From a virus, in the IMG/VR virus record IMGVR_UViG_3300032236_000815, positions 24,585-88,584 of that record: 64,000 nucleotides of DNA, one strand, 5' to 3'. This document shows, one piece after another, positions 8,670-51,290 of the stretch; the stretch's first letter is position 1, and each line of letters begins with the position of its first letter. Below the pieces are notes generated by a model. The model saw nothing but the letters and a program-made list of their open reading frames with translations. It was not told where the DNA came from and did not search any database. The translations under genes and the position numbers were made by a program.

Positions 8670-10352
8670 ATGTCTAAAATCTTTAGTATTCCAATTAATC
8701 CAAAATTAAACGCTGATCAATTCAATCAGTTTTATAAATTCTTAGCAGAATACAAAGACTATATCCGCGACATTTATTTCACCAGTAGAATCGCACCATT
8801 TATGCAAGACGCAATGGGCGATGTATTTGTTATCCACGAAGATCATTCTTATCTAATTGAAACAGCCTTGCATATTCAACGCACATTAGGGATTCCCGTT
8901 AGTGCTACATTTAACAATATACAAGTTGCACCAACACAAAAGAATTTAGACATTTTCATTAGTAATTTTAAACCATTATATGATGCAGGAGTACGTAGTG
9001 CTACAATTCCTCATACACATTGGATGGCAACGGGACAGATTAAAGCGGCCTTTCCTGAATTATATGTTAAGAACACTATCCTAAGAGAAGTACATACTGC
9101 ACAGGAAGTAGTTAATTTAGCACAATACGGATTTGATTACATAAACTTAGACCGAGATCTAATGCGTGACCATGATAAATTACGAGAAATAAAACGAGCA
9201 AAAGAATATATTAAAAAAACATTAGGTAAGGATATTGCAATTAGTTTGCTTGCCAACGAAGGGTGTGCAGGCGGATGCAGTATGATGGAGGAACATTATC
9301 ATTTTAACAATATACGTGAAGGTGTAAACAGTCCTCAATACTTCAATGATACAATCAGCCGTGTAAGTTGCCCTAATTGGAATGTACAAGATTCATCTAT
9401 ATTTCTTAAACAAGCTAATTTTACTCCTTGGAAAGCAGACTGGGACGAGTTTGTTAATGACCTTGGAATAGATAGCATTAAAATGCATGGAAGAGAAGGT
9501 ATAACTAGGCTATTTGAAACTATGGAAATTGTTCGTAGATACGCTGCCGGGGAAGAATTTCTATATCCAGGATTTGAAAGATATTTAGAAGAAACTAATC
9601 TTGTTGAAAAACCTATTAACATATGGCGCAACAAGATTAAAACATGTCGGTTTGAATGCTGGGATTGTAACTATTGCGACAAAGTATATGAAAAGAAATC
9701 TGATATAGAATTTTCAGAGTTGGTAAAACATGCCGCAGATTGTGTATTAAAATCAGGTGTACCCACTGTAAGAGTTGATGCTCCAGGATTGACTAGTGTT
9801 AGAGTACAAACGCTATTGAACTTACTAGCGCAAGGTGTTAATACATACTTAGAAATAGGTGCCGCTCAAGGAGCAACATTCTGTGCAGTATTAAAAGACA
9901 ATCCGATTCGTGCTATTGCTGTTGATAACTGGAAACAAAATATCCAACCAGCAAATGGTCAAGTTACAATGCCGGCAAACTCTTTAAATACTTTTATTAA
10001 AAACTTTGAAAAATATAAAGGCAATTCAAATATTAGCATTATTGATCAAGATTTATTTGAAGTAGATGTAACACCGTTTGCTGGAACAATTAAAATGATG
10101 TTCTATGACGGCCCGCACGAAGAAGAAGTAACTAAACGTGCTATGATGCATTATGCTCCAGCATTAGAAAACGAGGCAATTGTAGTATTTGATGATGCAA
10201 ACTGGCCGACAGTTGTTGCAGGTGCAAAAGCAGGTATTAAAGAAGCTGGGTTTGAAGTAGCATACGAAAAGTTAATGTTAAACGACTTAGAAGATCCTAA
10301 TGCTTGGTGGAACGGAGTATATGTAACAGTTATTAGGAAAATAAATGATTAA
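8670..10352 (+). CDS. Fusion of a U32-peptidase-like Fe-S domain and a SAM methyltransferase
   Basis: The product has 560 residues. Residues 1-345 resemble the U32 'peptidase' family (relatives are UbiU/UbiV, TrhP and RlhA, which are Fe-S hydroxylation enzymes rather than proteases): a barrel-like region followed by Cys199, Cys203, Cys234 and the cluster Cys326/330/333/336, suitable as Fe-S ligands. Residues 365-560 form a class I SAM-dependent methyltransferase (glycine-rich loop YLEIGAAQGATF at 393-404, then FYDGPHEEE and VVFDDAN), closest in style to Methyltransf_24. It is the first gene of a seven-gene operon and overlaps the halogenase gene by 8 nt. The substrate is unknown. A U32-methyltransferase fusion is unusual and suggests two successive steps on one substrate. 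Confidence 0.7.
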   Translation: MSKIFSIPINPKLNADQFNQFYKFLAEYKDYIRDIYFTSRIAPFMQDAMGDVFVIHEDHSYLIETALHIQRTLGIPVSATFNNIQVAPTQKNLDIFISNFKPLYDAGVRSATIPHTHWMATGQIKAAFPELYVKNTILREVHTAQEVVNLAQYGFDYINLDRDLMRDHDKLREIKRAKEYIKKTLGKDIAISLLANEGCAGGCSMMEEHYHFNNIREGVNSPQYFNDTISRVSCPNWNVQDSSIFLKQANFTPWKADWDEFVNDLGIDSIKMHGREGITRLFETMEIVRRYAAGEEFLYPGFERYLEETNLVEKPINIWRNKIKTCRFECWDCNYCDKVYEKKSDIEFSELVKHAADCVLKSGVPTVRVDAPGLTSVRVQTLLNLLAQGVNTYLEIGAAQGATFCAVLKDNPIRAIAVDNWKQNIQPANGQVTMPANSLNTFIKNFEKYKGNSNISIIDQDLFEVDVTPFAGTIKMMFYDGPHEEEVTKRAMMHYAPALENEAIVVFDDANWPTVVAGAKAGIKEAGFEVAYEKLMLNDLEDPNAWWNGVYVTVIRKIND

Positions 10353-11871
10353 AAAAGTTAAAAAAATTATAGTATTTGGTGGCGGAACTAGCGGTTGGCT
10401 AACAGCCGCCTACTTAGTTAAAAACTTAACTATACCTGCAGAAGTTGTTCTTATCGAAGATGCAAGTGCAGGCCCTATTGGAGTAGGTGAAGGTACACAA
10501 CCATTTACTGCTAGATTTTTATACGAAGCTGGAATACCGCCTAAGGCATGGATGAAGTCTAGTCAAGCGGTATTTAAATACGGTGTAGAAATTACAGGAT
10601 TTAACGAAGAACCATATTTTGTCGATAACGATGTGCCAACAAATTGCATGATTGGTCAAGGGTTATTTGTCAGCGATTATTTTGTCGACAGACCATACAG
10701 CGAAGTACGAGATTGGCACCCAGCATATCAGCTTGCTAAAAATAATATTAGTAGCAAATACGACGATTACCTAGATGCTAATCACGGTTCGGGTCCTGAT
10801 AGCTACGGTGCAGTACATTTTAATGCATTTGATATTATTAAAACAATCAAAGAAATCATACTAGATAAAATTACATACGTCGACACACGCATTTCAGATG
10901 TAAAACAAGATAAAGATGGCATAACAAAACTAGTAGCACAGGACGGTAGCGAATATATTGCAGATTTATATTTGGATTGTACAGGTTTTTCTAGTTTACT
11001 ATTAGAAAAGACACTAGGATCTCCGTTTACCAACTATTCGCCTTGGCTCCCATGCGATAGTGCTGTAGCAATGCCTACTGAATTTAAAGATAAGCGAGCA
11101 GAAATGCATCCTTATACAAAATCAACAGCTATGACTTCTGGGTGGAGATGGACTATTCCTACCTTCACGCGAATAGGCAATGGTTACGTTTACAGTAGTA
11201 AACACATTACGCCCGAGCAAGCTGAGAAAGAGCTACGTGAAAGTATTGGCGAATTTAATGCTCCTGCAAAACATCTTAAAATGAAATGCGGAGTACACAA
11301 AGAAATCGCAGTTAAAAATGTGTGTGCTGTTGGACTAAGTGCTGGATTCATTGAGCCTTTAGAAGCGACTGGCATTACGTTTACAACAGCAACAGTACAA
11401 AGCATTGCAGAAATATTAAACATCAACGGCAACGTGTGGAATGACTATGCAAGAACAAATCTAAATGCTGGATTTTACGAAATGACTACTGAAATTTTTG
11501 CATTTGTATGGGCACACTATTATTTTAGTAGTAAAAATGATACACCATTCTGGCAAGATATTAGAAATATGAAAATTTCTGACTTACCACAAGAAGTACA
11601 AGACATATTAAATGTATTTTTAGAAAGACCACTGCCGTTTATTTTCTTAAAACCAAACAGCATGTTCTGTACATTCCAATGGTTTACGATGTTACATGCT
11701 GGAGGCGCATATAAAAATGTTACTAGTAGCTTAACTCCTAAGCAAAAAGAATACAGTAAATATTTCTTAGATTCTCACTCGGCTCGAGTCGAGCTGGCGA
11801 AGAAGATGTTTCCTAATCAATACGAATATTTACAATCTTGGTACAGCGACTGGGAATCAGAGGAGATATAA
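10345..11871 (+). CDS. Flavin-dependent (tryptophan) halogenase
   Basis: The product has 508 residues, the usual length for the family. The FAD-binding GGGTSGW is at residues 12-18, followed by GVGEGTQP (46-53). Lys78 in 'FKYG' matches the catalytic lysine of tryptophan halogenases. The diagnostic WxWxIP motif is W267-P272, and EPLEATG (337-343) matches the conserved PLExTG segment. These enzymes use FADH2, O2 and halide to make HOCl/HOBr that is channelled to the lysine. A viral precedent is VirX1 of cyanophage Syn10. No flavin reductase gene is visible nearby, so the host must supply FADH2. It overlaps the genes on both sides. Halogenase chemistry is well supported; the substrate (free Trp, a protein residue or another aromatic) is unknown. 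Confidence 0.85.
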   Translation: MIKKVKKIIVFGGGTSGWLTAAYLVKNLTIPAEVVLIEDASAGPIGVGEGTQPFTARFLYEAGIPPKAWMKSSQAVFKYGVEITGFNEEPYFVDNDVPTNCMIGQGLFVSDYFVDRPYSEVRDWHPAYQLAKNNISSKYDDYLDANHGSGPDSYGAVHFNAFDIIKTIKEIILDKITYVDTRISDVKQDKDGITKLVAQDGSEYIADLYLDCTGFSSLLLEKTLGSPFTNYSPWLPCDSAVAMPTEFKDKRAEMHPYTKSTAMTSGWRWTIPTFTRIGNGYVYSSKHITPEQAEKELRESIGEFNAPAKHLKMKCGVHKEIAVKNVCAVGLSAGFIEPLEATGITFTTATVQSIAEILNINGNVWNDYARTNLNAGFYEMTTEIFAFVWAHYYFSSKNDTPFWQDIRNMKISDLPQEVQDILNVFLERPLPFIFLKPNSMFCTFQWFTMLHAGGAYKNVTSSLTPKQKEYSKYFLDSHSARVELAKKMFPNQYEYLQSWYSDWESEEI

Positions 11872-12865: not shown

Positions 12866-14047
12866 ATGAAAAAACGTCTCGGAATTATCGGAGTAGGATC
12901 AGCAGGTATACTAAGTCTAAGTTACTTCTGTGCCCACTTGGATAATACATGGGAAGTTGTTAGTATTAACGATCCTAACGGTAAAATATTAGGAATTGGA
13001 GAAAGTTCTAACCCGAGTTTTGTTTCAGCATTAGAAGCAGGGCTTGGATTTAATATGTATGACGATATTAAAGAGCTAGATGCTACATATAAATTTGGCA
13101 CAATGTGGAAAACTTGGAGAGACAAAGAGTTTATATCTCCACTGCTAGGTGGTAATACTGCTATACATTTTAACAATTTTAAATTAAAAGAATTTGCTAT
13201 TCCTAGGTTACATCAACGTTGGCCGCATAAGTTTAGCGAGCTATCGGGTAAGGTAGAAGAACTTATCGGCCACGCTTCTCATGTTGATGTTGTTGTAGAC
13301 GGCGTTAATCATCAGTACAATTATATTATAGATTGCAGAGGTTTCCCTACAGAATGGGACGATTATAATATTTGTGAAAATATGCCAGTTAATCATGCAC
13401 TAGTACACAACAAAGATCTACCCGGCGATTGGATGTACACAGGACACCGTGCCCACAAAAATGGTTGGATGTTTGAAATCCCGTTAACTAACAGACAAAG
13501 CTATGGATATTTGTTTAACAATAACATAACTACAGTAGAAGATGCTAAGAAAGATTTTAGTCAAGAAATCGATGTGCCAGTTGATCAGCTACAAAATATA
13601 GAATATAAGTTTCAAAGTTTTTATACTACTAAACTTTTAGATGGTAGAATTTTAAAAAATGGAAATAGAGCTATTTTCTTTGAACCTATTAGTGCTACTA
13701 GTTTGTTTATGTATGATCAAGCTAATCGAATATTCCTTAGCTACTTAAATCACAGTATTGAAACTCCTGAAAGAGTTAATAAAGAATTTATAAATGTAGC
13801 AAGTGCATTGCGCGAGTTAATTTGCTGGTTCTATCACGGTGGCAGTACATATGATACACCGTTTTGGCAAGCAACGAAAGAAAAAACTCGACCAGTAGTA
13901 GAAAATAGTCAGATGATGAAAATGTTAAAACATAGTTATGCTGAGTGGATTGCTAAAGATAGTCCTATGTATGCTGACAAATTTTTCTTCGAACCGCATT
14001 TAATGTTACAACTAGACAAAAACTTTCAATATAATTATTTCAAATGA
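12866..14047 (+). CDS. Second, divergent halogenase-like flavoprotein
   Basis: The product has 393 residues, about 115 shorter than its neighbour at 10345. It keeps the FAD fingerprint GVGSAG (9-14), the GIGESSNP loop (43-50), a lysine in 'YKFG' (Lys76) at the catalytic position, and W201-P206 as WMFEIP, a WxWxIP motif with the second Trp replaced by Phe. The PLExTG segment has become EPISATS. It therefore has the halogenase fold and lysine with an altered active-site wall. It may halogenate a different site, act as a flavin hydroxylase, or work as a regulatory or paired subunit. It overlaps the next gene by 4 nt (ATGA). Confidence 0.72.
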   Translation: MKKRLGIIGVGSAGILSLSYFCAHLDNTWEVVSINDPNGKILGIGESSNPSFVSALEAGLGFNMYDDIKELDATYKFGTMWKTWRDKEFISPLLGGNTAIHFNNFKLKEFAIPRLHQRWPHKFSELSGKVEELIGHASHVDVVVDGVNHQYNYIIDCRGFPTEWDDYNICENMPVNHALVHNKDLPGDWMYTGHRAHKNGWMFEIPLTNRQSYGYLFNNNITTVEDAKKDFSQEIDVPVDQLQNIEYKFQSFYTTKLLDGRILKNGNRAIFFEPISATSLFMYDQANRIFLSYLNHSIETPERVNKEFINVASALRELICWFYHGGSTYDTPFWQATKEKTRPVVENSQMMKMLKHSYAEWIAKDSPMYADKFFFEPHLMLQLDKNFQYNYFK

Positions 14048-35841: not shown

Positions 35842-36834
35842 ATGGCAACTTTAGCTGAAATTAGAGCAAAACTAAAAGCATCTGAGCAAAAAGGTTCAGA
35901 CAACAATCGTTCAGGCGGTGACAAATCAATTTACCCGTTCTGGAATCTTAAAGAAGGTGGCGAATCTACACTTAGATTTTTACCAGATGGTAACACCGAC
36001 AACACTTTTTTCTGGGTAGAACGTGCAATGATCAAATTGCCATTCGCTGGAATCAAAGGTGAATCAGAAAGCAAACCCGTTACAGTACAAGTACCATGCG
36101 TAGAAATGTATGGCGATTCTTGCCCAATCTTGGCAGAAGTACGTGGCTGGTTCAAAGACCCTTCATTAGAAGACATGGGTCGTAAATACTGGAAGAAGCG
36201 TTCTTATATTTTCCAAGGTTTCGTTGTTGAAGACGGACTAGGCGAAAAATCAGAAGACCAACCAGAAAATCCAATCCGCCGTTTCATTATCGGTCCACAA
36301 ATTTTCCAATCAATTCGTTCAGCACTTGTTGATCCAGAGTTGGAAGACTTGCCAACTGACTACGTACATGGGTTGGACTATCGCATGAAGAAGACTTCAA
36401 AAGGTGGCTATGCTGACTACTCAACATCTAGTTGGGCACGTCGTGAGCGTCCACTAAGCGATGCTGAACAAGCGGCTATTGAAACAAACGGCTTGTATAA
36501 CTTGTCAGACTTTTTGCCTAAGAAACCAGGCGAAGTAGAATTGAAAGTTATGAAAGAAATGTTTGAAGCTTCAGTAGACGGCGAGCCATATGATATGGAA
36601 CGTTGGGGTCAATACTTCAAGCCAGCAGGCATGAGCCAACAAACTGGCGATCCTGTAAAGCAAACTCCTAAAGCCTCTGCTCCAGTAGCAGAAGACAGCT
36701 ACGAAGACGAAGCACCTGCTCCAGTAGCAAAGGCAGCACCTGCACCATCAGCACCAAAAGCTGATGCAACAGCAGGCGGCGATTCACGTGCTCAAGACAT
36801 CTTGGCAATGATTCGCAATCGTCAAAAGCAATAA
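35842..36834 (+). CDS. gp32: Single-stranded DNA-binding protein gp32-like
   Basis: The product has 330 residues (T4 gp32 has 301). An N-terminal cooperativity helix with basic residues is followed by a core with WNLKEGGESTLRFLPDG, a Cys-containing strand VPCVEMYGDSCPI, FQGFVVEDG and RRFIIGPQIFQSI typical of T4-like cyanophage gp32. The C-terminus is acidic and Ala/Pro-rich, the usual protein-interaction tail. It coats ssDNA in replication and recombination and works with UvsX, UvsY and gp41 encoded downstream. Confidence 0.92.
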   Translation: MATLAEIRAKLKASEQKGSDNNRSGGDKSIYPFWNLKEGGESTLRFLPDGNTDNTFFWVERAMIKLPFAGIKGESESKPVTVQVPCVEMYGDSCPILAEVRGWFKDPSLEDMGRKYWKKRSYIFQGFVVEDGLGEKSEDQPENPIRRFIIGPQIFQSIRSALVDPELEDLPTDYVHGLDYRMKKTSKGGYADYSTSSWARRERPLSDAEQAAIETNGLYNLSDFLPKKPGEVELKVMKEMFEASVDGEPYDMERWGQYFKPAGMSQQTGDPVKQTPKASAPVAEDSYEDEAPAPVAKAAPAPSAPKADATAGGDSRAQDILAMIRNRQKQ

Positions 36835-36902: not shown

Positions 36903-37958
36903 ATGGCCACAAAAGCCTTCGATTTATCGAAATTTAGAAAGACCTTGACTAAGTCTATTGACGGTCTAGGCATCGGGTTTAATGACCCGACAGATTGGGT
37001 TAGTACAGGCAACTTTGCTTTGAACTACTTAATCAGTGGTGACTTTAACAAAGGCATTCCTTTGGGCAAGGTTACTGTATTTGCCGGCGAGTCAGGTGCT
37101 GGTAAGTCATACATTTGTTCAGGCAACATTGTTAAGAACGCACAAGAGCAAGGCATTTATGTTATCCTAGTTGATAGCGAAAACGCCTTGGATGAAAAAT
37201 GGTTACACGCACTAGGTGTAGACACAAGCGAAGACAAGCTATTGAAACTTAACATGGCTATGATCGATGACGTTGCTAAAACTATTCATGAATTTATGTC
37301 AGAGTACAAGGCAATGGAAAACCGTCCTAAGGTCTTGTTTGTTATCGACTCATTGGGCATGTTGTTGACTCCAACAGACATTAACCAGTTTGAAGCAGGT
37401 GATTTGAAAGGTGATATGGGTCGTAAACCTAAAGCACTTACAGCACTTGTTCGTAACTGTGTAAACATGTTTGGTAACTATAATGTAGGTATGGTATGTA
37501 CTAATCACACATACGCAAGTCAAGACATGTTCGATCCAGATGACAAAATTTCAGGCGGACAAGGATTTGTTTACGCAAGTTCTATCGTAGTTGCTATGAA
37601 GAAGTTGAAGTTGAAAGAAGACGAAGACGGTAACAAAGTTTCAGAAGTCAACGGTATTCGTGCCGCTTGTAAGATTATGAAAACTCGTTACGCAAAGCCT
37701 TTTGAAACATTACAAGTTAAAATTCCATACGAAACAGGTATGAATCCTTACAGCGGTTTGGTTGACTTGTGCGAGAAAGCCGGCTTGTTAAAACAAGAAG
37801 GTAACAGACTCAAGTGGGTTGATCCGGAAACAGGTGAAGAGTTCAAATTCTACCGAAAAGAATGGAAAGATGATAAATTAGATATGTTAATGAATAAATT
37901 TCATATAGCATATAATACAACTACCATTCCCGAGGAGAACGAAGAAAATGTTGAATGA
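36903..37958 (+). CDS. uvsX: RecA-like recombinase UvsX
   Basis: The product has 351 residues (T4 UvsX has 391). Walker A GESGAGKS is at 62-69, then VLVDSENALDEKWL, the Walker B region KVLFVIDSLGML, and NHTYASQDMFDPDDKISGGQG, the L2-like loop of UvsX. SD aggaga. It forms the presynaptic filament with gp32 and UvsY for strand exchange and recombination-dependent replication. It overlaps the next small gene by 11 nt. Confidence 0.95.
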   Translation: MATKAFDLSKFRKTLTKSIDGLGIGFNDPTDWVSTGNFALNYLISGDFNKGIPLGKVTVFAGESGAGKSYICSGNIVKNAQEQGIYVILVDSENALDEKWLHALGVDTSEDKLLKLNMAMIDDVAKTIHEFMSEYKAMENRPKVLFVIDSLGMLLTPTDINQFEAGDLKGDMGRKPKALTALVRNCVNMFGNYNVGMVCTNHTYASQDMFDPDDKISGGQGFVYASSIVVAMKKLKLKEDEDGNKVSEVNGIRAACKIMKTRYAKPFETLQVKIPYETGMNPYSGLVDLCEKAGLLKQEGNRLKWVDPETGEEFKFYRKEWKDDKLDMLMNKFHIAYNTTTIPEENEENVE

Positions 37959-38193: not shown

Positions 38194-38648
38194 TGGGTTG
38201 GTATACCGATATTGCTAAAGACATCAGTAACATCCCTGATGCTGTGCTATACTTTGAAGCAGAACTAGTGGAAGCTCGTAAAGAGGTTAAACTCACTGGT
38301 AATGTTGAACGAGCAAGTGCGGCCATGCCAGGAATTGTTGAGCATCGCTTCGGCCAGTTACAAGAAATCGAAGCAATATTGGAATACCTTAACATTGAAC
38401 TTCGTAGACTTAAGAGCAGTTTTTTCCGTAAGTATTTGGAAAGCTATCAACGTGCTCTTAGTAGTCGAGATTGCGAAAGATTTGTTGAAGGTGAGGCAGA
38501 CGTTGTTGATATGGAAAAAATTATCAACGAATTTGCCTTGCTACGCAACAAATGGCTAGGAATTACAAAAGCACTAGACCAAAAACAATGGCAAATTACA
38601 AATATTGTAAAATTACGTGTTGCTGGTATGGAAGATGCAAGTATCTAA
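38193..38648 (+). CDS. uvsY: Recombination mediator UvsY
   Basis: The product has 151 residues (T4 UvsY has 137). It is a helical protein with RRLKSSFFRKYLESYQRALSSRDCERFVEGE, the DNA-binding KARLDYY-like region of T4 UvsY, and the C-terminal block ALDQKQWQITNIVKLRVAGMEDA. It helps load UvsX onto gp32-coated ssDNA. Its position after uvsX supports the call. Confidence 0.88.
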   Translation: MGWYTDIAKDISNIPDAVLYFEAELVEARKEVKLTGNVERASAAMPGIVEHRFGQLQEIEAILEYLNIELRRLKSSFFRKYLESYQRALSSRDCERFVEGEADVVDMEKIINEFALLRNKWLGITKALDQKQWQITNIVKLRVAGMEDASI

Positions 38649-39510
38649 GAAAATATTGTTTAACGGGTGTAGTTTTGTTCACGGTGACGACTTAATGTGG
38701 CCGTATACAATGGTCGAACACTACGATAAAACAAACCCAGACTATTTAAAAATATTAAAACAATTTAATATATCAGGTCTTACTGAAAAAACAGAAATTT
38801 TTGAAAATGTTGAAAATATTGCACGATATGGAGCAACTAACGACCTGATTACATTTTCAACAATTGAATTTTTTAATAATATCCCCCAAGAAGAGCGATC
38901 AAACTATGTAGCATGTATAGGTTGGTCAGATCCTTGTAGAATTATGGTGCCTAACACATGGGCAGATCCAGCTGAGGATTTTTCTAAAGATAATAACATA
39001 GAAAATCTCCAAAAAATGTGGTTCCATTTGAATTTATACACAATGAATGGTAACGACAGTGACGTGCAACAAAAATATAAATCTTTGGCAGACGAATATG
39101 TACGTCAGTTCGACGATGCATACTGGTTTAAAGAACATATTAAAAATATTCTAATTCTTGAGAACTACTTTAAGGCAAACAACATAGAATTTGTCTTTTG
39201 GAACAGTATTGGCTTTCCTTTAAAAGCAGTTGACCAGTACACAAAAGATATTTTCCTAAATTTAGTTGATTGGTCACATTGGATCAATTGGGTGGACCTT
39301 AAAGTTCAATACATGGTCACAGGAACACAAATTCCTCCAGGGTTCAGTCACCCTTATGACCAAAAATTAGGAGTTTTTTGCTCTATGCTTGAAGTAATAG
39401 GCGAACCACAAGCATGGACACGCACTAAGCATCCTGGTCCTGAAGCTGTAAGTTTATGGACAAAGATTATTTTGAAACATTTAGTCAGAAAAAACATAAT
39501 TAATGGTTGA
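38635..39510 (+). CDS. SGNH/GDSL-hydrolase-like protein
   Basis: The ATG at 38635 is chosen; it lies inside uvsY and overlaps it by 14 nt. A GTG 18 nt upstream is the alternative. The 291-residue product has N-terminal ILFNGCSFVHGDDL, which fits block I of SGNH hydrolases with Ser13 as nucleophile (GCSFT-type phage variants), and a C-terminal HPGPEAVSLW, which fits the block V His. The middle is Trp/Asn-rich. Such enzymes deacetylate or de-esterify glycans or lipids. Its presence inside the recombination operon is odd. Confidence 0.6.
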   Translation: MQVSKKILFNGCSFVHGDDLMWPYTMVEHYDKTNPDYLKILKQFNISGLTEKTEIFENVENIARYGATNDLITFSTIEFFNNIPQEERSNYVACIGWSDPCRIMVPNTWADPAEDFSKDNNIENLQKMWFHLNLYTMNGNDSDVQQKYKSLADEYVRQFDDAYWFKEHIKNILILENYFKANNIEFVFWNSIGFPLKAVDQYTKDIFLNLVDWSHWINWVDLKVQYMVTGTQIPPGFSHPYDQKLGVFCSMLEVIGEPQAWTRTKHPGPEAVSLWTKIILKHLVRKNIING

Positions 39511-39516
39511 CTTTTG

Positions 39517-39534
39517 TGTTAGCATCTGCTAACA
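39517..39534 (+). promoter_or_regulatory. Perfect inverted repeat before the 39543 start
   Basis: Arms of 8 nt (39517-39524 and 39527-39534) with a 2-nt apex end 8 nt before the ATG at 39543, where an SD would be expected. No T-run follows, so it is more likely an RNA hairpin or operator than a terminator. Confidence 0.4.
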
Positions 39535-39542
39535 TTACTAAT

Positions 39543-40745
39543 ATGACTACTGTTGATAATTTATTACTGAGAATTGTTAATTTTACTGAACCTGCTATTG
39601 AAGAACAAATTCATGCTAGGGATAGTAAGGTATTAAGAAGCCTTGCTTTGTCGGTTTCCAATGGAGTGTTTATCACTGAAAACCAAAGTAAACTACTAAT
39701 TAAAATTCTTAAAGAAAATTCTAAAAAAATAATAAATTTTTCAGAAGAAATTGAAGAGCGAGTAACAGAACCTAGTTGGTCACGAAATTTTCGAGAAATT
39801 GAACAAGTACGTAAACTGTACATAGGTAAAAATTCTGATGATGAATTAGTATTAGTAATTGAAACGACCTTCAACTCGCAAATTCGTAAAATTCTTAATG
39901 ACATATCAAAAAATTGCGAAGGTGTCATTGCCGCGTCTAATGGCAAAAAGTATATAACTGACCTAACCGAAAAAAATATCGTAATTTTAATGGACGCACT
40001 GGCATCCCATGATTTCGATATCGACGAAAAAATAAAAAAACACTACGAAATCATAAAAAGTTGGTCGGAACAAGATGTTATAGATCAGTTCAAGTTAACT
40101 AACATAACTAACACTAACTTTCAAAAACACATCACCGAAGACCTTGGCATTTCGACCGCAATCGACCAAAATATCATTAATGACAGAAGTGTAAGATACC
40201 AATTTTTTACAGAAAATCCAAAAAATCTTGGAGAGTCGTTAACCGAGTACATTGCCAACAGACCTAATACTAAGCTATGGGTTGATAAAAATCAACACTC
40301 ACTAACAGACGTGGTATCAAGTTTAATAGAATTAAAAAGATTGCCAATTTTAGTGGTCTTTGATACTGTAGTTAATGAAAAATACCTCGAAAATTTGAAA
40401 ATTTTGTCGGAAGCACTGGAAGCTAATAACATAGACGACCGAGTTGGTGTTTACTTTAGATTAGAAAATGACGACATGGGCAAACAGTTTAATCAGTTGA
40501 TTAAACAAAAACAATACAACTACGAGCTTGGTACAAACACTGTAGTTACCGCAGTACAAAGTGGAAAATTACCGAAATTTTTCATAAAAAATGCATGGCG
40601 TCCTATGAGTGTAATAGCACTTGATAGCCGTATGGGTTTACGTCATGGCAAAACTGCTGTATACTCTAATTGTTGTGACCTTATAGTTGAATGGGCAGAA
40701 CAACCTAACTTATTAGAACAAAAGAAAATCGGATCATGGCGGTAA
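39543..40745 (+). CDS. Conserved-type protein upstream of uvsW, unknown function
   Basis: The ATG at 39543 gives 400 residues. A TTG at 39507 that overlaps the previous stop as TTGA would add 12. The protein is helical and charged in its first half (residues 30-200). The second half has an alpha/beta pattern (LPILVVFDTVVNEKYLENL) and a conserved-looking C-terminal block (KFFIKNAWRPMSVIALDSRMGLRHGKT...NCCDLIVEW) that I associate with uvsW neighbours in cyanophages. It overlaps uvsW by 10 nt. Function unknown. Confidence 0.6.
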   Translation: MTTVDNLLLRIVNFTEPAIEEQIHARDSKVLRSLALSVSNGVFITENQSKLLIKILKENSKKIINFSEEIEERVTEPSWSRNFREIEQVRKLYIGKNSDDELVLVIETTFNSQIRKILNDISKNCEGVIAASNGKKYITDLTEKNIVILMDALASHDFDIDEKIKKHYEIIKSWSEQDVIDQFKLTNITNTNFQKHITEDLGISTAIDQNIINDRSVRYQFFTENPKNLGESLTEYIANRPNTKLWVDKNQHSLTDVVSSLIELKRLPILVVFDTVVNEKYLENLKILSEALEANNIDDRVGVYFRLENDDMGKQFNQLIKQKQYNYELGTNTVVTAVQSGKLPKFFIKNAWRPMSVIALDSRMGLRHGKTAVYSNCCDLIVEWAEQPNLLEQKKIGSWR

Positions 40746-42205
40746 AATTAGTAATTTGCGACGAAGTAAATATCAAGTTTGAGAACTTGTCGCTAGATGC
40801 ACGAAAGAAATTAGCAAACACTTTTAAGTACGAAGATCCAACTGCAAGATATAGACCTGCATATAAACTAGGTCGTTGGGACGGCAAGGTATCGATGTTT
40901 GGACTTGGTGGCAACGGTTATCTTAGTCAGCTAGAAAAGTGCCTTGGCATACTTGCAGACATGGATATTGACATCGATGAACTGGAAGATTTGCGTACTA
41001 CAAGTAAAATTGAGTTTACTCCGGTAACTGCTAATTACTGGGCTGACCAAGGAAAAGTATGGCCCGAAGGTCATAGATTTGCAGGACAACCGATTGTATT
41101 GCGTGACGATCAAACTGAGGTAGTCAACAGATTTTTTACAAATACTCAAGCCTTACAAGAAGTAGCAACCGGTGCTGGTAAGACTATTATGACAGCAACT
41201 TTAGCTCATTGTGCAGAGAAATATGGACGCACAATCACTATTGTTCCTAACAAAGATTTGGTCACGCAGACTGAAGAAGACTTTATTAACGTTGACTTAG
41301 ATGTAGGTGTTTACTACGGTGACCGTAAAGATTTAGGTAAGACACACACCATTTGTACTTGGCAGTCGCTTAACATTTTAGACAAAAAATCTAAGAACTG
41401 GGATGCAGATATAGCATATACATTGGCTGAATTCTTAGACGGAGTTAAGACGGTTATTGTCGACGAAGTACACATGGCCAAAGCAGAAGTACTGAAAAAC
41501 CTACTAACACAAAACTTGTGCAATGCTCCGATCCGTTGGGGATTAACTGGAACAGTTCCTAAAGACGAATTCGAAAGCGAGCCTATTTTTGCTTCAATCG
41601 GCCCAGTAGTCGGCGGCATTAAGGCACACGAATTACAAGAGATGGGTGTGCTCAGTAACTTGCACGTAAACATTTTACAACTTATAGATTTACCAGAATA
41701 TAAGACATATCAAGAAGAATTAAAATATCTTGTTACTAACAAAGACAGGATGACATATTTTAGTAAACTAGTTCAAGGCTTAGCAGAGACAGGCAATACA
41801 TTAATTCTAGTCAATAGAATTGATACAGGCAAATTATTAACAGAAATGATAGAAGGCGCTGTTTTTATTTCAGGCGAAGTAAAAGGCACGAAACGAAAAG
41901 AGGAGTACAAAGAACATGCAACAACTGATAACAAGATTACTGTGGCGACTTTTGGTGTGGCCGCTGTGGGTATTAATATCCCCCGTATTTTTAATCTGGT
42001 TCTTTTGGAGCCCGGAAAGAGCTTTGTCCGCGTTATACAATCAATTGGGCGCGGCATTAGAAAAGCAGAAGACAAAGACTTTGTACAAATCTGGGACGTT
42101 ACGTCGACCTGTAAATTCGCCAAGCGTCACCTCACTACGAGGAAGAAATTTTACAAGGATGCCAAGTATCCGTTTACAATACAAAAAGTGGACTGGCAAA
42201 AATAA
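40736..42205 (+). CDS. uvsW: UvsW-type SF2 helicase
   Basis: The product has 489 residues. The N-terminal substrate-specificity region has YRPAYKLGRWDGKVSMF (40-56). Motif I is ATGAGKT (144-150), motif II DEVH (243-246), motif III LTGTVP and motif VI QSIGRGIRKA. UvsW unwinds R-loops and branched intermediates and switches T4-like phages from origin- to recombination-dependent replication. Confidence 0.95.
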   Translation: MAVKLVICDEVNIKFENLSLDARKKLANTFKYEDPTARYRPAYKLGRWDGKVSMFGLGGNGYLSQLEKCLGILADMDIDIDELEDLRTTSKIEFTPVTANYWADQGKVWPEGHRFAGQPIVLRDDQTEVVNRFFTNTQALQEVATGAGKTIMTATLAHCAEKYGRTITIVPNKDLVTQTEEDFINVDLDVGVYYGDRKDLGKTHTICTWQSLNILDKKSKNWDADIAYTLAEFLDGVKTVIVDEVHMAKAEVLKNLLTQNLCNAPIRWGLTGTVPKDEFESEPIFASIGPVVGGIKAHELQEMGVLSNLHVNILQLIDLPEYKTYQEELKYLVTNKDRMTYFSKLVQGLAETGNTLILVNRIDTGKLLTEMIEGAVFISGEVKGTKRKEEYKEHATTDNKITVATFGVAAVGINIPRIFNLVLLEPGKSFVRVIQSIGRGIRKAEDKDFVQIWDVTSTCKFAKRHLTTRKKFYKDAKYPFTIQKVDWQK

Positions 42206-43359: not shown

Positions 43360-43627
43360 ACCAGGTGCAACTCTTGTACACGAACGTGTAAAAAATGTAG
43401 TTTATTCCAGAGAATTGGGTGCAGATCCTAGTACACGAAAAGTAGTCGGTTGGGATTATGATCCTGCCAATCCAACCTATGATCCACGTACTAGCGGACG
43501 ACAAGAGTTGGAAGAACATAACGAATGGATTAAAATTCGGTTGGAAGCAAAAACCAATCCCACTTTACAAAAGGCGGTGGATCGTGTTAAAATGTTGTAT
43601 AAACTAAGCAAAGAAAAATATGAGTGA
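43346..43627 (+). CDS. Small conserved-type phage protein
   Basis: The ATG at 43346 is chosen (product MGSLKPGATLV...), inside the end of the oxygenase gene. It has 93 residues, with VHERVKNVVYSRELGADPSTRKVVGWDYD at the start and a helical C-terminus (NPTLQKAVDRVKMLYKLSKEKYE). This pattern recurs next to uvsW and gp55 in cyanophages as an unnamed gene. It overlaps the next gene by 8 nt. Function unknown. Confidence 0.65.
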   Translation: MGSLKPGATLVHERVKNVVYSRELGADPSTRKVVGWDYDPANPTYDPRTSGRQELEEHNEWIKIRLEAKTNPTLQKAVDRVKMLYKLSKEKYE

Positions 43628-44099
43628 AAAAGTTGAACTGAAAGAGAAATTGGCCGCAGTGGATCAAAACATCCGCGAGCTATGGGACGCCATGACTCCA
43701 GAGCAACAAAAAGCACTTAAGAATGAATACTTTATTCTTAATAGATATGTTAGTAGTGTTCAAGGACAAAAACGTGAAATACAAGAACATTTTGTATTAA
43801 CTGTTAATGAATATTTTAACAAACATTGGAATAGTTTACAGAAGCATCCTAAACTTATGTGGATGTTGTTGTGTATGTGTAGCTACAACGGAGAGAAACA
43901 ATTCTTTCACGAGTGGATAGGGCATAAAAAACGTGCGGGTTCAAATACTAAGAAAATTCGGTTCTTAGAAGAGATTTATCCTAATAAAAAACAAGACGAG
44001 TTAGAACTGTTAAGTAAGATTAGTACTGATAAAGAATTAAAAGAACTAGCTCGTGCATATGGACTAGACGAAGCAACAATCGCTAAAAAATTAAAATGA
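43620..44099 (+). CDS. Conserved-type helical phage protein
   Basis: The product has 159 residues. A coiled-coil start (ELKEKLAAVDQNIRELWDAM) is followed by YFILNRYVSSVQGQKREIQE, HPKLMWMLLCMC and FFHEWIGHKKR, ending in a charged helix. It overlaps both neighbours (8 and 4 nt). I considered late-transcription factors and clamp-loader parts but no diagnostic motif was seen. Role unknown, probably in replication or transcription by context. Confidence 0.6.
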   Translation: MSEKVELKEKLAAVDQNIRELWDAMTPEQQKALKNEYFILNRYVSSVQGQKREIQEHFVLTVNEYFNKHWNSLQKHPKLMWMLLCMCSYNGEKQFFHEWIGHKKRAGSNTKKIRFLEEIYPNKKQDELELLSKISTDKELKELARAYGLDEATIAKKLK

Positions 44100-44791
44100 T
44101 GGCACTGGCTAATCAACCTTATATTTGTGGACATTGTGGTAAAGGCTTCATGCAAGAGAAGACTTTATTCGTTCATGTTTGTGAACAAAAACGCAGACAC
44201 ATGGCTCAAAAAGAAAAACATGTAGTACTTGCGTTTGACACATTTCAAAAATTTTATAAGTTAAATCAGCCAAATAGCAAGCAGGAAAAAACCTATGAAG
44301 AATTTTGTAAGAGTCCTTATTATAACGCTTTTGTTAAGTTTGGCAGCTTTGTCAGTAACGTTAATCCTCTCTATCCATCACAATTCATTGACTGGATTGT
44401 ACGAAGCGGTGTCAAACTCGATCACTGGTGCAAAGACGAACTCTACGAACAATACGTCCTCGAACTTATCAAAAGAGAACCCGTCGAAGTCGCATTAGAG
44501 CGCAGTATAAGTCATATGCTGGCGTGGGCAAACGACAACAACGCACCTTGGAATCATTACTTTTTATATGTTAGTTTAAGTCGTGCTTGTTATGATATTA
44601 AAGATGGAAAAATTAGTCCTTGGATTATTTTAAATAGTAATAATGGCAAAGCAATGTTGCAAAAGTTCAGCGATGAGCAATTGAAACATGTACAAAATAT
44701 TATCGATCCGCCGTTCTGGGTAAGTAAATTTAAAAAATTACCAGCAGACGTTGCATTGGTAAAGGAAGTAGTCAAGGAGTCTAATATATGA
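44096..44791 (+). CDS. N-terminal zinc-finger phage protein
   Basis: The product has 231 residues. A zinc finger at residues 11-35 (CGHCGKGF...HVCEQKRRH) is followed by a helical domain with YNAFVKFGSFV, QFIDWIVRSGVKLDHWCKDELYEQYVLELI, HYFLYVSLSRACYDI and PPFWVSKFKK. This gene type is common in cyanophage-like genomes without a name. The arrangement would suit a DNA-binding loader or accessory factor, but this is inference. ATGA overlaps at both ends. Confidence 0.65.
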   Translation: MMALANQPYICGHCGKGFMQEKTLFVHVCEQKRRHMAQKEKHVVLAFDTFQKFYKLNQPNSKQEKTYEEFCKSPYYNAFVKFGSFVSNVNPLYPSQFIDWIVRSGVKLDHWCKDELYEQYVLELIKREPVEVALERSISHMLAWANDNNAPWNHYFLYVSLSRACYDIKDGKISPWIILNSNNGKAMLQKFSDEQLKHVQNIIDPPFWVSKFKKLPADVALVKEVVKESNI

Positions 44792-44952
44792 ACAATCCCG
44801 TGACTTGGTTATTGTACGATGGTACTATTTTAGAAGAAATTCCTGAACAAAACAGATGTGCGGATATATGGCGTCTTGTTAATCCAGAGACAGACAAGCC
44901 ATACGATCCTAACAAAGACGAACCTAAACAGTGGATACACACGGACTACTAA
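44788..44952 (+). CDS. Small 54-residue protein
   Basis: The ATG overlaps the previous stop as ATGA and the stop is 1 nt before the next ATG, so it fits the operon exactly. The product starts MNNPVTWLLYDG and is rich in Asp, Glu, Trp and Pro (NPETDKPYDPNKDEPKQW). No known family. The perfect fit between neighbours is the main evidence that it is real. Confidence 0.65.
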   Translation: MNNPVTWLLYDGTILEEIPEQNRCADIWRLVNPETDKPYDPNKDEPKQWIHTDY

Positions 44953-44953
44953 T

Positions 44954-45526
44954 ATGCCAGATATTGATATCGATTTTGCAGACAGAACAAAGGCTTTAGA
45001 TGTTTTAAAGCATATCGATGCACGACTAGATAGTAGTTCTAAAAAACACAACACTGGTGTATATTGTACTTCGATCCCGTATAATCCAATTACAGGAATA
45101 AGTACATTAGACTACAAAGAAGCAGAAGATAGAGGTTATTTTAAGATAGACTTTTTGAATGTTAGTGTCTACGAAAAAGTAAGAGATAAGGCACATCTTA
45201 CACAATTAATGGAGACTGAACCACTATGGGATTTACTGTTACAGGACGAGTTTACAAATTTACTATTCCACGTAAATGGGCATGGCTACTTGATGAGACA
45301 GATGAAACCTACTTCAATCGAAGAATTGGCAATGTGTCTAGCTTTGATCCGCCCAGCGAAGAAGCATCTTATTGGGAAGACTTGGCAGGAGATTGCGAAG
45401 ACGATTTGGGAGAAGCCGGAGAACGGTGATTACTACTTTAAGAAAGCACATGCCATTGCTTACGCACACGTGATAGTAGTTCAGATGAATTTAATTTGCG
45501 AGAATGTTAGCTACGAGTTTAGTTAA
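44954..45526 (+). CDS. Mini DnaE-like protein (Pol III alpha fragment-like)
   Basis: The ATG at 44954 is chosen because it begins the motif MPDIDIDF, directly after the preceding stop. The upstream in-frame start would overlap a real gene. The 190-residue product has PDIDIDF with Asp3/5/7 like the catalytic PDxDxDF of bacterial DnaE, then YFKIDFLNVSVYE like the K-x-DFLGL block, and a C-terminal YYFKKAHAIAYAHVIVVQMNLI like the DnaE F-x-KSHA-x-AY segment. The PHP, most palm and beta-binding parts are absent. It could be a decoy, a clamp or replisome partner, or a remnant kept for a new role. Confidence 0.7.
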   Translation: MPDIDIDFADRTKALDVLKHIDARLDSSSKKHNTGVYCTSIPYNPITGISTLDYKEAEDRGYFKIDFLNVSVYEKVRDKAHLTQLMETEPLWDLLLQDEFTNLLFHVNGHGYLMRQMKPTSIEELAMCLALIRPAKKHLIGKTWQEIAKTIWEKPENGDYYFKKAHAIAYAHVIVVQMNLICENVSYEFS

Positions 45527-45897
45527 CGTACTTTTCGCACCAATTGAACACTTTTACGTTTAACACGTTTTAAAGTTAAGTTCATTAAATTAACAACAGG
45601 CCCTAATACAACTCTAGTATCCTTGCTGTTAAATGTTTTTATAGCATAGGCAAATGGGTGAATTTGATCCCTACAAAAAATATTAATAGGATATTGACGG
45701 TTACTTTCCCACCACCATATTTCTCCTATTTCTAAAAATTGTGCTCTTTCCTCAGGAGTTTTAATAGAGTTGAGGTCGTAAAAACTAGTTACGAATTGGT
45801 CCTGGTTTATTATAATTCCTACATACTCGTTTTCACCATAATTAATTACGCTGATAAACGGTAGATTTTGTTCGATATCGTCTCTTAGTTTTGCCAT
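45523..45897 (-). CDS. Hypothetical protein, minus strand
   Basis: The product has 124 residues and is convergent with the DnaE-like gene (4-nt tail overlap). Features: YDLNSIKTPEERAQFLEIGEIWWWESNRQYPINIF, KTFNSKDTRVVLGPVVNL and a basic tail (LKRVKRKSVQLVRKVR). The pattern looks like a conserved cyanophage gene of unknown function. The Trp cluster and basic C-terminus suggest nucleic-acid or protein binding. Confidence 0.65.
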   Translation of the reverse strand: MAKLRDDIEQNLPFISVINYGENEYVGIIINQDQFVTSFYDLNSIKTPEERAQFLEIGEIWWWESNRQYPINIFCRDQIHPFAYAIKTFNSKDTRVVLGPVVNLMNLTLKRVKRKSVQLVRKVR

Positions 45898-46796: not shown

Positions 46797-47786
46797 ATGA
46801 GCCTAATAGCGGATACACTACTACAATACTTACCCGGAAAGCGTAAACAAACTCCAAGTGGTTGGATTTCGTTTAATGCTGTCTGTTGTGACGACAAAAG
46901 ACAACGTGGAGGTTTTATTGTAAATGGCGGTGATGCTGTTAGCTATCATTGTTTCAATTGCGGATTTAAATGTAGCTGGCAACCGGGCAGACACATAAGT
47001 AGAAATATGAATAAGTTCATGCGGGATTTAAATATTCCGGATGATACTATTGCTCAATTAAGACTAGAAGCACTAAAACACGACAGCAATAACAATACTG
47101 AAGTTCGCAGTATTATTCCAAAGTTTGATGTACGTGCAATGCCAATCGATAGCGAACCTATCACACACTGGCTAGACAATCCTCCAGAAAAACTTATACC
47201 TGTATTAGAATACATGGTGAATAGAAAACTTTTTCCTGAAGATTTTCCTTTCTATTGGACACCTAAAATTGGATTCAGTAACCGCTTGATTATTCCATTT
47301 TACCACGATGGCATCATTGTAGGTTATACTGCCCGTGCAATTAACGCAGACGCAAATCCAAGATACTTGAGCGAACAACAGCCCGGATATGTGTTTAATT
47401 TAGATCGACAACACGATGAAAGATCTTTCGTGATTGTGCTAGAAGGACCTATAGATGCAATAAGTATTGATGGGTGTGCGTTGATGGGCAGTGAGATCAA
47501 AGACAGTCAAAACTGGTTGCTAAAACAGTTGGGTAAAGAAATCGTTCTTGTACCAGACAGAGATCACGAAGGCCCTAAATGTGTAGAACAAGCGATTGAA
47601 CATGGGTGGAGTGTTAGTATGCCCGACTGGCCCGAAGGTGTTAAAGACGTTAACGATGCAGTTCGTAAAATTGGCAAGTTAGCAACTCTATGGCTAATTG
47701 TTCAAGCAACAGAATCTAATAGTCTTAAAATACAGCTAAGAGCAAAGAAGTGGTTTCCAAAGGATGACAATGAAAAGAATAATTAA
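46797..47786 (+). CDS. gp61: DNA primase gp61-like
   Basis: The product has 329 residues (T4 gp61 has 342). The N-terminal zinc-binding region has Cys30/31 and HCFNCGFKC (51-59). The Toprim core has VLEGPIDAIS (Glu216) and VPDRDHEG (Asp254/Asp256). It makes RNA primers for lagging-strand synthesis with the gp41 helicase encoded 1.6 kb downstream. Confidence 0.92.
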   Translation: MSLIADTLLQYLPGKRKQTPSGWISFNAVCCDDKRQRGGFIVNGGDAVSYHCFNCGFKCSWQPGRHISRNMNKFMRDLNIPDDTIAQLRLEALKHDSNNNTEVRSIIPKFDVRAMPIDSEPITHWLDNPPEKLIPVLEYMVNRKLFPEDFPFYWTPKIGFSNRLIIPFYHDGIIVGYTARAINADANPRYLSEQQPGYVFNLDRQHDERSFVIVLEGPIDAISIDGCALMGSEIKDSQNWLLKQLGKEIVLVPDRDHEGPKCVEQAIEHGWSVSMPDWPEGVKDVNDAVRKIGKLATLWLIVQATESNSLKIQLRAKKWFPKDDNEKNN

Positions 47787-49364: not shown

Positions 49365-50780
49365 ATGGCTCAAAATATAAATTACGGATATGATGTACAG
49401 AAATTGTACTTAGAAATGATGTTAAGCGATGCGGAAACATTTGTACGTTGTCAGAGTATTTTTGACCACACATTGTTTGATCGCAAGTTGCAAGACTCGG
49501 CAGAGTTTATTAACAAGTATGTAGAAGAATATAGTGTACTACCTACATTTGACATTGTAAATGCGTCTACTGGTGGCAATTTAAAGGTACCTGAAGGTGT
49601 TAGAGAAGCAAACTATGATTGGGTATTAAATGACTTTGAAACCTTTATTAGACACAAAGGTCTCGAGAGAGCAATTTTAGAAAGTGCCGACTTACTAGAA
49701 AAAGGTGAGTATGGTCCGGTCGAAGAAAAGATCAAAAAAGCAGTACAAATCGGGTTACAACGTGACATGGGTACTGATTATTTTGAAGACCCGAGAGCAC
49801 GTCTTGCAAGGATCAAGGACAAAAATGGACAAATATCGACAGGTTGGAAGAGCATCGACGACAAACTGTATGGTGGCTTTAATCGCGGTGAGCTCAATAT
49901 TTGGGCTGGTGGTTCTGGTGCAGGAAAATCCTTATTTTTGGCAAATCTTGGTGTCAATTATGCTCTCGCTGGTCTCAATGTTCTTTACCTTACATTAGAA
50001 CTTTCAGAGGACTTGGTGTGTATGCGTATTGATGCGATGACCACTGGAATCCCCACAAGAGAAATTTTCAAGAGCATCGATGACGTTGAAATGAAGGTTA
50101 AGATGATCGGTAAAAAATCCGGAAATCTTCAGGTCAAATACATGCCTTCGGGTAAAACTGCCAACGACATTCGTGCTTATATGAAAGAGTATGAAGTCAA
50201 ATTAGGACACAAGATTGATGTGTTGCTTGTGGACTATATGGACTTGATTATGCCTTTGAGCAAGCGAATCAGTGCTGAAAACTTGTTCGTGAAAGACAAA
50301 TATGTATCGGAAGAATTACGAAATTTAGCAGTAGAAAAGAACTGTGTGTTTGTAACTGCGGCACAGTTGAACCGTGGTGCCGTTGAAGAAGTTGAGTTCG
50401 ATCACTCGCATATCTCAGGTGGTTTGAGTAAGATTCAGACAGCAGATAACGTGTTTGGTATCTTTACAAGTCGTGCTATGCGTGAGCGTGGACGCTATCA
50501 AATTCAGTTGATGAAGACACGTTCTAGTAGTGGCGTTGGCATGAAGATTGACTTGGAGTTTAACATAGATACATTGCGTATTACGGACCTAGAAGAACAA
50601 GATGGATATGGAAGTGGAACGCAAAGTGCAGGTAGTACATTACTGAACAGTATTAAACAAAGACAAACAATAGCTCAAGAAAATCCAACAGATGGTGTAG
50701 CAGTACCAAAAGTTCGTGCTCAAGTTGAAAGTTCTAAGTTAAGAGATTTGTTGGCAAACCTGCCCGGTGACGAGTTGTAA
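49365..50780 (+). CDS. gp41: Replicative DnaB-type helicase gp41
   Basis: The product has 471 residues (T4 gp41 has 475). The N-terminal domain is followed by a RecA-like motor: GWKSIDDKLYGGFNRGELNIW, Walker A GGSGAGKS (182-189), LYLTLELSED, Walker B LLVDYMDLI, and the QLNRG/GLSKIQTAD segments. A -10-like TATAAT (49354-49359) lies 5 nt before the ATG, with only a weak -35 and no SD. Confidence 0.95.
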   Translation: MAQNINYGYDVQKLYLEMMLSDAETFVRCQSIFDHTLFDRKLQDSAEFINKYVEEYSVLPTFDIVNASTGGNLKVPEGVREANYDWVLNDFETFIRHKGLERAILESADLLEKGEYGPVEEKIKKAVQIGLQRDMGTDYFEDPRARLARIKDKNGQISTGWKSIDDKLYGGFNRGELNIWAGGSGAGKSLFLANLGVNYALAGLNVLYLTLELSEDLVCMRIDAMTTGIPTREIFKSIDDVEMKVKMIGKKSGNLQVKYMPSGKTANDIRAYMKEYEVKLGHKIDVLLVDYMDLIMPLSKRISAENLFVKDKYVSEELRNLAVEKNCVFVTAAQLNRGAVEEVEFDHSHISGGLSKIQTADNVFGIFTSRAMRERGRYQIQLMKTRSSSGVGMKIDLEFNIDTLRITDLEEQDGYGSGTQSAGSTLLNSIKQRQTIAQENPTDGVAVPKVRAQVESSKLRDLLANLPGDEL

Positions 50781-50846: not shown

Positions 50847-51290
50847 ATGGAACTACACCACATCAGAGATCTGACCGACCCACTGGTCAAAATCATTAAG
50901 GACGACCCAGTTCGTCCGCACATCCCACTCGAGCAACGTATCAACGAAGCCGCAGAAATTCTTATCCTTAAAGCTGGGGAGGAAGTTCTGGCGGCCACTT
51001 GTATGCAGTGGTTAACTGAAGTTCCAGAAGACGAAGAAGATCTTGTTGAAATCTCAAAAGACAAAAATGTTGCGGTATTTTACACTATTTGGAGCTATAG
51101 TCCAGGTGCAGGACAGAAGCTACTTAAACAAGCCGCAGAATGGTTGCTTCGCGATTATAAAGACATTAAAGGTATTGTAACTTTAAGTCCACAAACAGAA
51201 ATGGCCAAGCGATTCCATCTAAAAAATGGTGCAAAAATTCGCCGTCAAAACCCAACAAGCGTTAACTACGAATACTATTTCAAGGAATAG
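50847..51290 (+). CDS. GNAT-type acetyltransferase-like protein
   Basis: The product has 147 residues. NVAVFYTIWSYSPGAGQKLLKQAAEWL has the layout of a GNAT strand-4/helix-3 acetyl-CoA site (the loop is SPGAG), and MAKRFHLKNGAKIRRQNPTSVNYEYY is the usual 'F-x-x-NGA' end. Homologous genes of this type occur in cyanophages. Substrate unknown; a host protein or small molecule is possible. Confidence 0.65.
   Translation: MELHHIRDLTDPLVKIIKDDPVRPHIPLEQRINEAAEILILKAGEEVLAATCMQWLTEVPEDEEDLVEISKDKNVAVFYTIWSYSPGAGQKLLKQAAEWLLRDYKDIKGIVTLSPQTEMAKRFHLKNGAKIRRQNPTSVNYEYYFKE

Follow-up and report, generated by a model that had tools for sequence, protein, structure and literature searches.

A probable C-half of a split minimal DNA polymerase III alpha encoded in a metagenomic virus fragment

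In the split-intein DnaE of cyanobacteria (Synechocystis), two distant genes make up dnaE, and a split intein joins their products. Among phages, full-length DnaE is a C-family polymerase that forms a single chain with an N-terminal PHP domain (PMC7824862); it is represented by the jumbo phages of group 3.2 (phage G type) and by phrog_405. A different arrangement, also with two distant genes, was predicted by Iyer et al. (2021; Viruses 13:63, PMC7824862) for the group 2.2 jumbo phages: a stand-alone half containing the metal-binding and template/fingers parts (PHROG 11778; hereafter the C-half), a second, NTP-binding half (the N-half) at a distant locus, a family B polymerase (PolB) in the same genome, and no other Pol III domains. 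Single DnaE-like proteins, such as CBB_328 and Atu_ph07 gp316, were noted in earlier genome papers. The published claim of a split polymerase was based on sequence alone, and no experimental test of the two-half pair was found in the literature searched.

The gene described here is a further member of the split enzyme predicted in 2021. It is located in a window of 64,000 nucleotides (positions 24,585 to 88,584 of the IMG/VR record IMGVR_UViG_3300032236_000815), and it is of the same kind as the group 2.2 genes, differing in that it comes from a metagenomic fragment of 88.6 kb with no visible N-half or PolB. We consider it likely that the C-half is the catalytic-metal/fingers subunit of a naturally split minimal C-family polymerase (DNA polymerase III alpha). 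To the published prediction we add quantitative support in the form of a fixed split site, the reciprocal presence of the two halves, purifying selection, conserved synteny, and an active site that is invariant down to the steric gate; the split site, the reciprocal presence, and the active-site conservation make the claim directly testable. The gene and its principal neighbors in the window are as follows.

35842-36834, plus strand: single-strand DNA binding protein (phrog_1192, E=1e-62)
36903-37958, plus strand: UvsX-like recombinase (phrog_97, E=2e-69)
40736-42205, plus strand: UvsW-type DNA helicase, upstream (phrog_16, E=2e-68)
44096-44791, plus strand: neighbor with an N-terminal C2H2-like motif (phrog_11058, function unknown, E=5e-62)
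44788-44952, plus strand: 54-aa ORF with no PHROG or Pfam match
44954-45526, plus strand: probable C-half of a split minimal DNA polymerase III alpha (190 aa; assigned from phrog_11778, the PDB profile, the model, and invariant residues)
45523-45897, minus strand: small antisense gene (phrog_11637, function unknown, E=2e-31)
46797-47786, plus strand: DNA primase, downstream (phrog_47, E=1e-45)
49365-50780, plus strand: DnaB-like replicative helicase, downstream (phrog_19, E=8e-70)

According to the ORF list and translation, the C-half gene encodes 190 residues (MPDIDIDFADR...KIDFLN...ALIRPAK...YYFKKAHAIAYAHVIVVQMNLICE...), starting at the catalytic motif PDIDIDF and finishing with the fingers motif YFKKAHAIAY. 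Its landmarks are PDIDIDF (D3, D5), KIDF (K64, D66), the fingers segment ALIRPAK, and the O-helix YYFKKAHAIAYA (H166). The first-pass annotation, made from the sequence of the window, had described a DnaE-like protein of this length extending from PDxDxDF to F-x-KxHA-x-AY and encoded in a tightly packed operon of overlapping genes, and both the ORF with its motifs and the packing were confirmed: the preceding genes (43620-44099, 44096-44791, and 44788-44952) overlap by 4 nt each, and the ATG of the C-half lies 1 base past the stop of the 54-aa ORF. An alternative in-frame GTG at 44858 would give a product of 222 aa. In 77 IMG/VR homologues, the closest in-frame stop 5' of the Met is mostly only 0-9 codons away, and hence the C-half truly begins at the catalytic motif. 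For the C-half of Agrobacterium phage Atu_ph07 (5998-6567 of locus L003), the RefSeq start at 6073 is 75 bases too late and the RefSeq model loses PDIDIDF; by homology, the frame opens at about 5998.

The same annotation had proposed comparing the protein with the palm family PF07733, modeling its fold, and searching T4-like phages for the short form. The similarity to DnaE proved to be far above chance: the C-half matches phrog_11778 ('DNA polymerase') with E=8e-70 over nearly its full length, and it is detectably similar (E=6e-11) to phrog_405, the full-length phage polymerase family. Against PF07733, the single sequence aligns at model positions 98-114 only, with a sub-threshold E-value of 0.016; the match to the finger family PF17657 (E=0.007) is sub-threshold as well. 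With the single-protein Pfam matches below the cut-off, the convincing evidence is at the profile level. A C-half profile built from about 39 homologues retrieved only DnaE chains from the PDB, in collinear pieces corresponding to residues 413-425, 564-663, and 773-788 of M. tuberculosis DnaE1. The AlphaFold2 model of the C-half (pLDDT 86) has DnaE structures as its top 12 PDB fold matches (best E about 0.002, probability 0.99), and at this level the fold match is best judged together with the sequence evidence.

The C-half and bacterial DnaE (E. coli, Thermus, M. tuberculosis) have a common order of motifs and common catalytic residues, with lengths of 190 and 1160 aa, respectively. Residues D3, D5, D7, K64, D66, and H166 of the C-half are equivalent to D401, D403, D405, K553, D555, and H760 of E. 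coli DnaE, and all six are invariant in an alignment of 92 C-half homologues that takes in distant members (about 35% identity); the unvarying positions also include H32, G35, R133, P134, K136, and Y170. The catalytic metals are bound by D401, D403, and D555, which show absolute conservation throughout the C family, and D405 is conserved across all DnaE groups (PMC3919608). H760 lies in the 'O' helix of the DnaE fingers and has been proposed to act as a steric gate (PMC8485763). The three metal-binding aspartates that characterize the C family are therefore all present in the C-half (D3, D5, D66). The third of them, D66, and the steric-gate His H166 are absent from the first-pass account.

Mapping of the C-half onto E. 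coli DnaE was based on collinear local matches; global hhalign misplaced both ends. Nothing in the C-half corresponds to E. coli DnaE before residue 399 or past about 785. Only about 20 residues stand in place of the thumb (E. coli about 411-508, between the catalytic motif and KHAGGV) and about 22 in place of the fingers region 642-752, the thumb and about 110 fingers residues, including LGGADMLRRAMGKK with R709, being absent. Overall, the C-half is without the PHP domain, the palm front, the thumb, most of the fingers, the clamp-binding region, the OB domain, and the C-terminal domain. No clamp-binding part (QADMF at 920 in E. coli) or tau-binding part (the C-terminal domain) was found in the C-half alignment, and the chain does not contain a complete palm with the GRGS motif. 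With the thumb and the R709 fingers region lost, neither the binding of DNA nor the processivity can be as in DnaE unless partners contribute, and any enzymatic activity may turn out to be weak, different, or non-processive.

In related phages, a separate gene encodes the palm front. In 4/4 reference phages first tested, PF07733 matched a separate gene at model positions about 20-97, and the C-half picks up just past this segment, at position 98. The N-halves are 160-190 residues long and carry a W-G-x-G-R-G-S-S motif; among the aligned N-halves, PF07733 is matched by 34/34 and GRGSS is invariant in 34/34. The N-half aligns with E. coli DnaE 321-392, and both its profile and its model have DnaE as the sole or best PDB match. 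The split site is fixed: of 63 N-halves with a recognizable end, 58 stop 1 residue past EFL (E. coli F391-L392), and the rest stop 2-3 residues past it. About 13 N-half loci with short wrong ORFs, in which the tblastn match extends into the preceding gene, were excluded from both the alignment and this count. On E. coli DnaE, the N-half extends to about 393 and the C-half starts from 399, i.e., the two tile the protein with about five residues missing and zero overlap. Judged by length and alignment, the PHP, thumb, and clamp-binding regions are in neither half. Two small proteins, both conserved and found together, share the full set of catalytic residues between them and jointly rebuild the palm core and part of the fingers. 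In loci L007, L008, L009, and L010, the N-half is followed by a conserved protein of 113-153 aa and then by a GroES-like co-chaperonin frame (T4 gp31 type, assigned by eye).

In principle, such halves could be joined by protein trans-splicing into one continuous polymerase, as happens to the intein-bearing split DnaE of cyanobacteria. The presence of inteins in the PolB of related phages (PMC6892783) also speaks for this possibility. Unlike the cyanobacterial proteins, however, the phage halves contain no intein sequence, and with the N-half ending 1-3 residues past EFL, the C-half opening at the catalytic motif, and no overlap between them, an intein piece would have nowhere to fit. Trans-splicing was rejected on these grounds, and we regard it as extremely improbable.

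The two halves are reciprocally present in sufficiently long records. Fifty-eight of the 60 C-half phage records, among those listed, are also among the N-half matches, and a profile search recovered the N-half of Slicko01, raising the proportion of listed cultured-phage records with both halves to 59/60; the sole exception is PP728206, a record of 109.5 kb. The distance between the halves varies from 11 to 224 kb (13 phages). The N-half was found in 4/4 IMG/VR C-half records of at least 180 kb, and two C-half records of 147 and 151 kb have neither the N-half nor PolB. PolB itself was detected in 8/10 relatives, the other two being these same records. Conversely, the C-half is present in every tested N-half record longer than 250 kb (RAS14 and three from IMG/VR) and in two of 141 kb. 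It is missing from six others of 111-159 kb and from every shorter one, which counts against the pairing, although these records are probably fragments. In the 88.6-kb record from which the window is taken, family and profile searches did not find the N-half, and PolB was not found in it either; the joint absence suggests that the corresponding genome region is probably missing from the fragment, and the partner of this C-half is presumed to lie outside it.

The C-half is widespread as a short gene. By tblastn, it was found in 63 cultured-phage records, including RaK2-like and related jumbo phages, PA5oct-like Pseudomonas phages, Atu_ph07, Vibrio and Xanthomonas phages, and others, so that the short form sought among T4-like phages does exist in other large T4-related (jumbo) phages; relatives were also identified in at least 577 IMG/VR metagenomic virus stretches. 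All homologues examined are one and the same stand-alone short gene, and none is a piece of a longer phage gene, a finding on which the first-pass interpretation had been made to depend. The comparison with the nearest relative (L012) was uninformative for dN/dS due to saturated synonymous sites, and closer pairs were used instead; their dN/dS values are mostly 0.06-0.15. The C-half is under purifying selection and is not decaying, in line with the first-pass opinion, which is further supported by the number of records and the invariant active site. Descent from a host-derived, full-length dnaE that is now decaying would explain why the C-half is far shorter than cellular DnaE, and the CBB genome paper called the DnaE-like CBB_328 (172 aa) truncated (PMC5259590). 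This explanation was nevertheless rejected and has a negligible probability in our estimate, given that hundreds of viruses have the gene at one length and with identical ends, and given the strong purifying selection, the invariant active site, and the conserved synteny.

Subversion of host replication by phages is known, and the C-half resembles host DnaE. It could accordingly be a decoy, a catalytically idle piece of DnaE that binds the host clamp, clamp loader, or primase and diverts them to phage use; the first-pass annotation had suggested that it might be a mimic of this type, capturing the clamp loader or replisome parts. The data argue against such a function, to which we assign a very low probability. 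The clamp- and tau-binding regions of DnaE are absent, invariance of the catalytic triad and of the steric gate would be superfluous in a decoy, and the missing palm half is supplied in relatives by a phage-encoded partner. Furthermore, the family spans phages of very different hosts, and its similarity to host DnaE is so remote (E=1e-5 even with a profile) that the C-half would be a poor mimic.

The genomic neighborhood points to replication. In the 80 nearest viral loci, some of which are too short to span all neighbors, the order UvsW, C2H2-motif protein, C-half, antisense gene, primase, and DnaB helicase is kept, these genes being present in 68, 77, 80, 77, 68, and 58 loci, respectively; the C2H2-motif neighbor is upstream and on the same strand in 77/80. 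This synteny with UvsW, primase, and helicase, together with the single-strand DNA binding protein and UvsX genes upstream, indicates that the C-half belongs to the replication module. The phrog_11637 gene converges on the 3' end of the C-half gene, sharing its last 4 bases; it is antisense in 77/77 loci that have it and lies within about 25 nt of the C-half in 72. Such a reversed gene is unusual inside a same-strand replication cluster, and it recurs both in 77/80 loci and in distant jumbo phages. Directly 5' of UvsW, the window contains two genes (38617-40745, plus strand; 297 and 412 aa) with no Pfam or PHROG match; at the position preceding UvsW, phage GAP32 has a gene for a Pol III epsilon-like exonuclease (723-1568 of locus L002).

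For the split polymerase, we propose that the N-half and C-half (about 365 residues together) would bind each other non-covalently and that the joined halves would complete one nucleotidyltransferase active site. The two-part enzyme would then extend DNA at the phage fork alongside the phage's own family B polymerase. As a guess suggested by the conserved position between UvsW and the primase and helicase, its likeliest job might be to extend primers until PolB takes over, or to repair gaps. In B. subtilis, RNA primers are briefly extended by DnaE, after which PolC takes over (PMC5627055); this analogy and the neighboring primase make a primer-extension role a reasonable guess.

The fact that these phages already encode PolB counts against a second polymerase. 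Together with the loss of the thumb and much of the fingers, including R709, and with the adjacency of the gene to primase and helicase, it would suit a polymerase-derived split complex with another job, either a specialized nucleotidyltransferase (short-gap filling, end addition, or nucleotide sensing) or a scaffold for the primase and helicase. On the other hand, the conserved equivalents of the steric-gate His and of K553 argue for selection of the incoming dNTP (PMC8485763), and we consider a complex of this kind rather unlikely, although distinctly less so than a decoy. The split polymerase also admits a more far-reaching version, which we put forward tentatively as possible but doubtful: a single active site would be formed by two unjoined proteins, one contributing GRGSS for nucleotide binding and the other the catalytic metals, to give an exceptionally small C-family polymerase of about 365 residues that acts as a primer extender beside primase and helicase in PolB-replicating phages and that may preserve an early multi-subunit stage of bacterial replicase evolution, as suggested by Iyer et al.

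If the split polymerase is real, it would show how little of the bacterial replicase suffices for catalysis, and mixing two small proteins would be enough to complete the active site of a two-component polymerase. A large group of jumbo phages would, moreover, be using polymerases of families B and C side by side, a point relevant to the kinship between the bacterial and the archaeal/eukaryotic replication machines.

Several other genes of the window were observed in passing. A carbamoyltransferase gene (PF02543/PF16861; 47880-49349, plus strand) lies between the primase and the helicase; its relatives are present in 45/80 loci and not in the cultured reference phages, and its product possibly has a role in nucleotide or DNA modification. 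A pair of tryptophan-halogenase-like genes of phrog_2928 (10345-11871 and 12866-14047, plus strand), the first of which matches PF04820 with E=8e-93, is situated amid tail and structural genes. Finally, a 147-aa protein (50847-51290, plus strand) has a weak match, above the cut-off, to the malonyl-CoA decarboxylase C-terminal domain (PF05292, E=3e-6) and may be a GNAT-like acetyltransferase.
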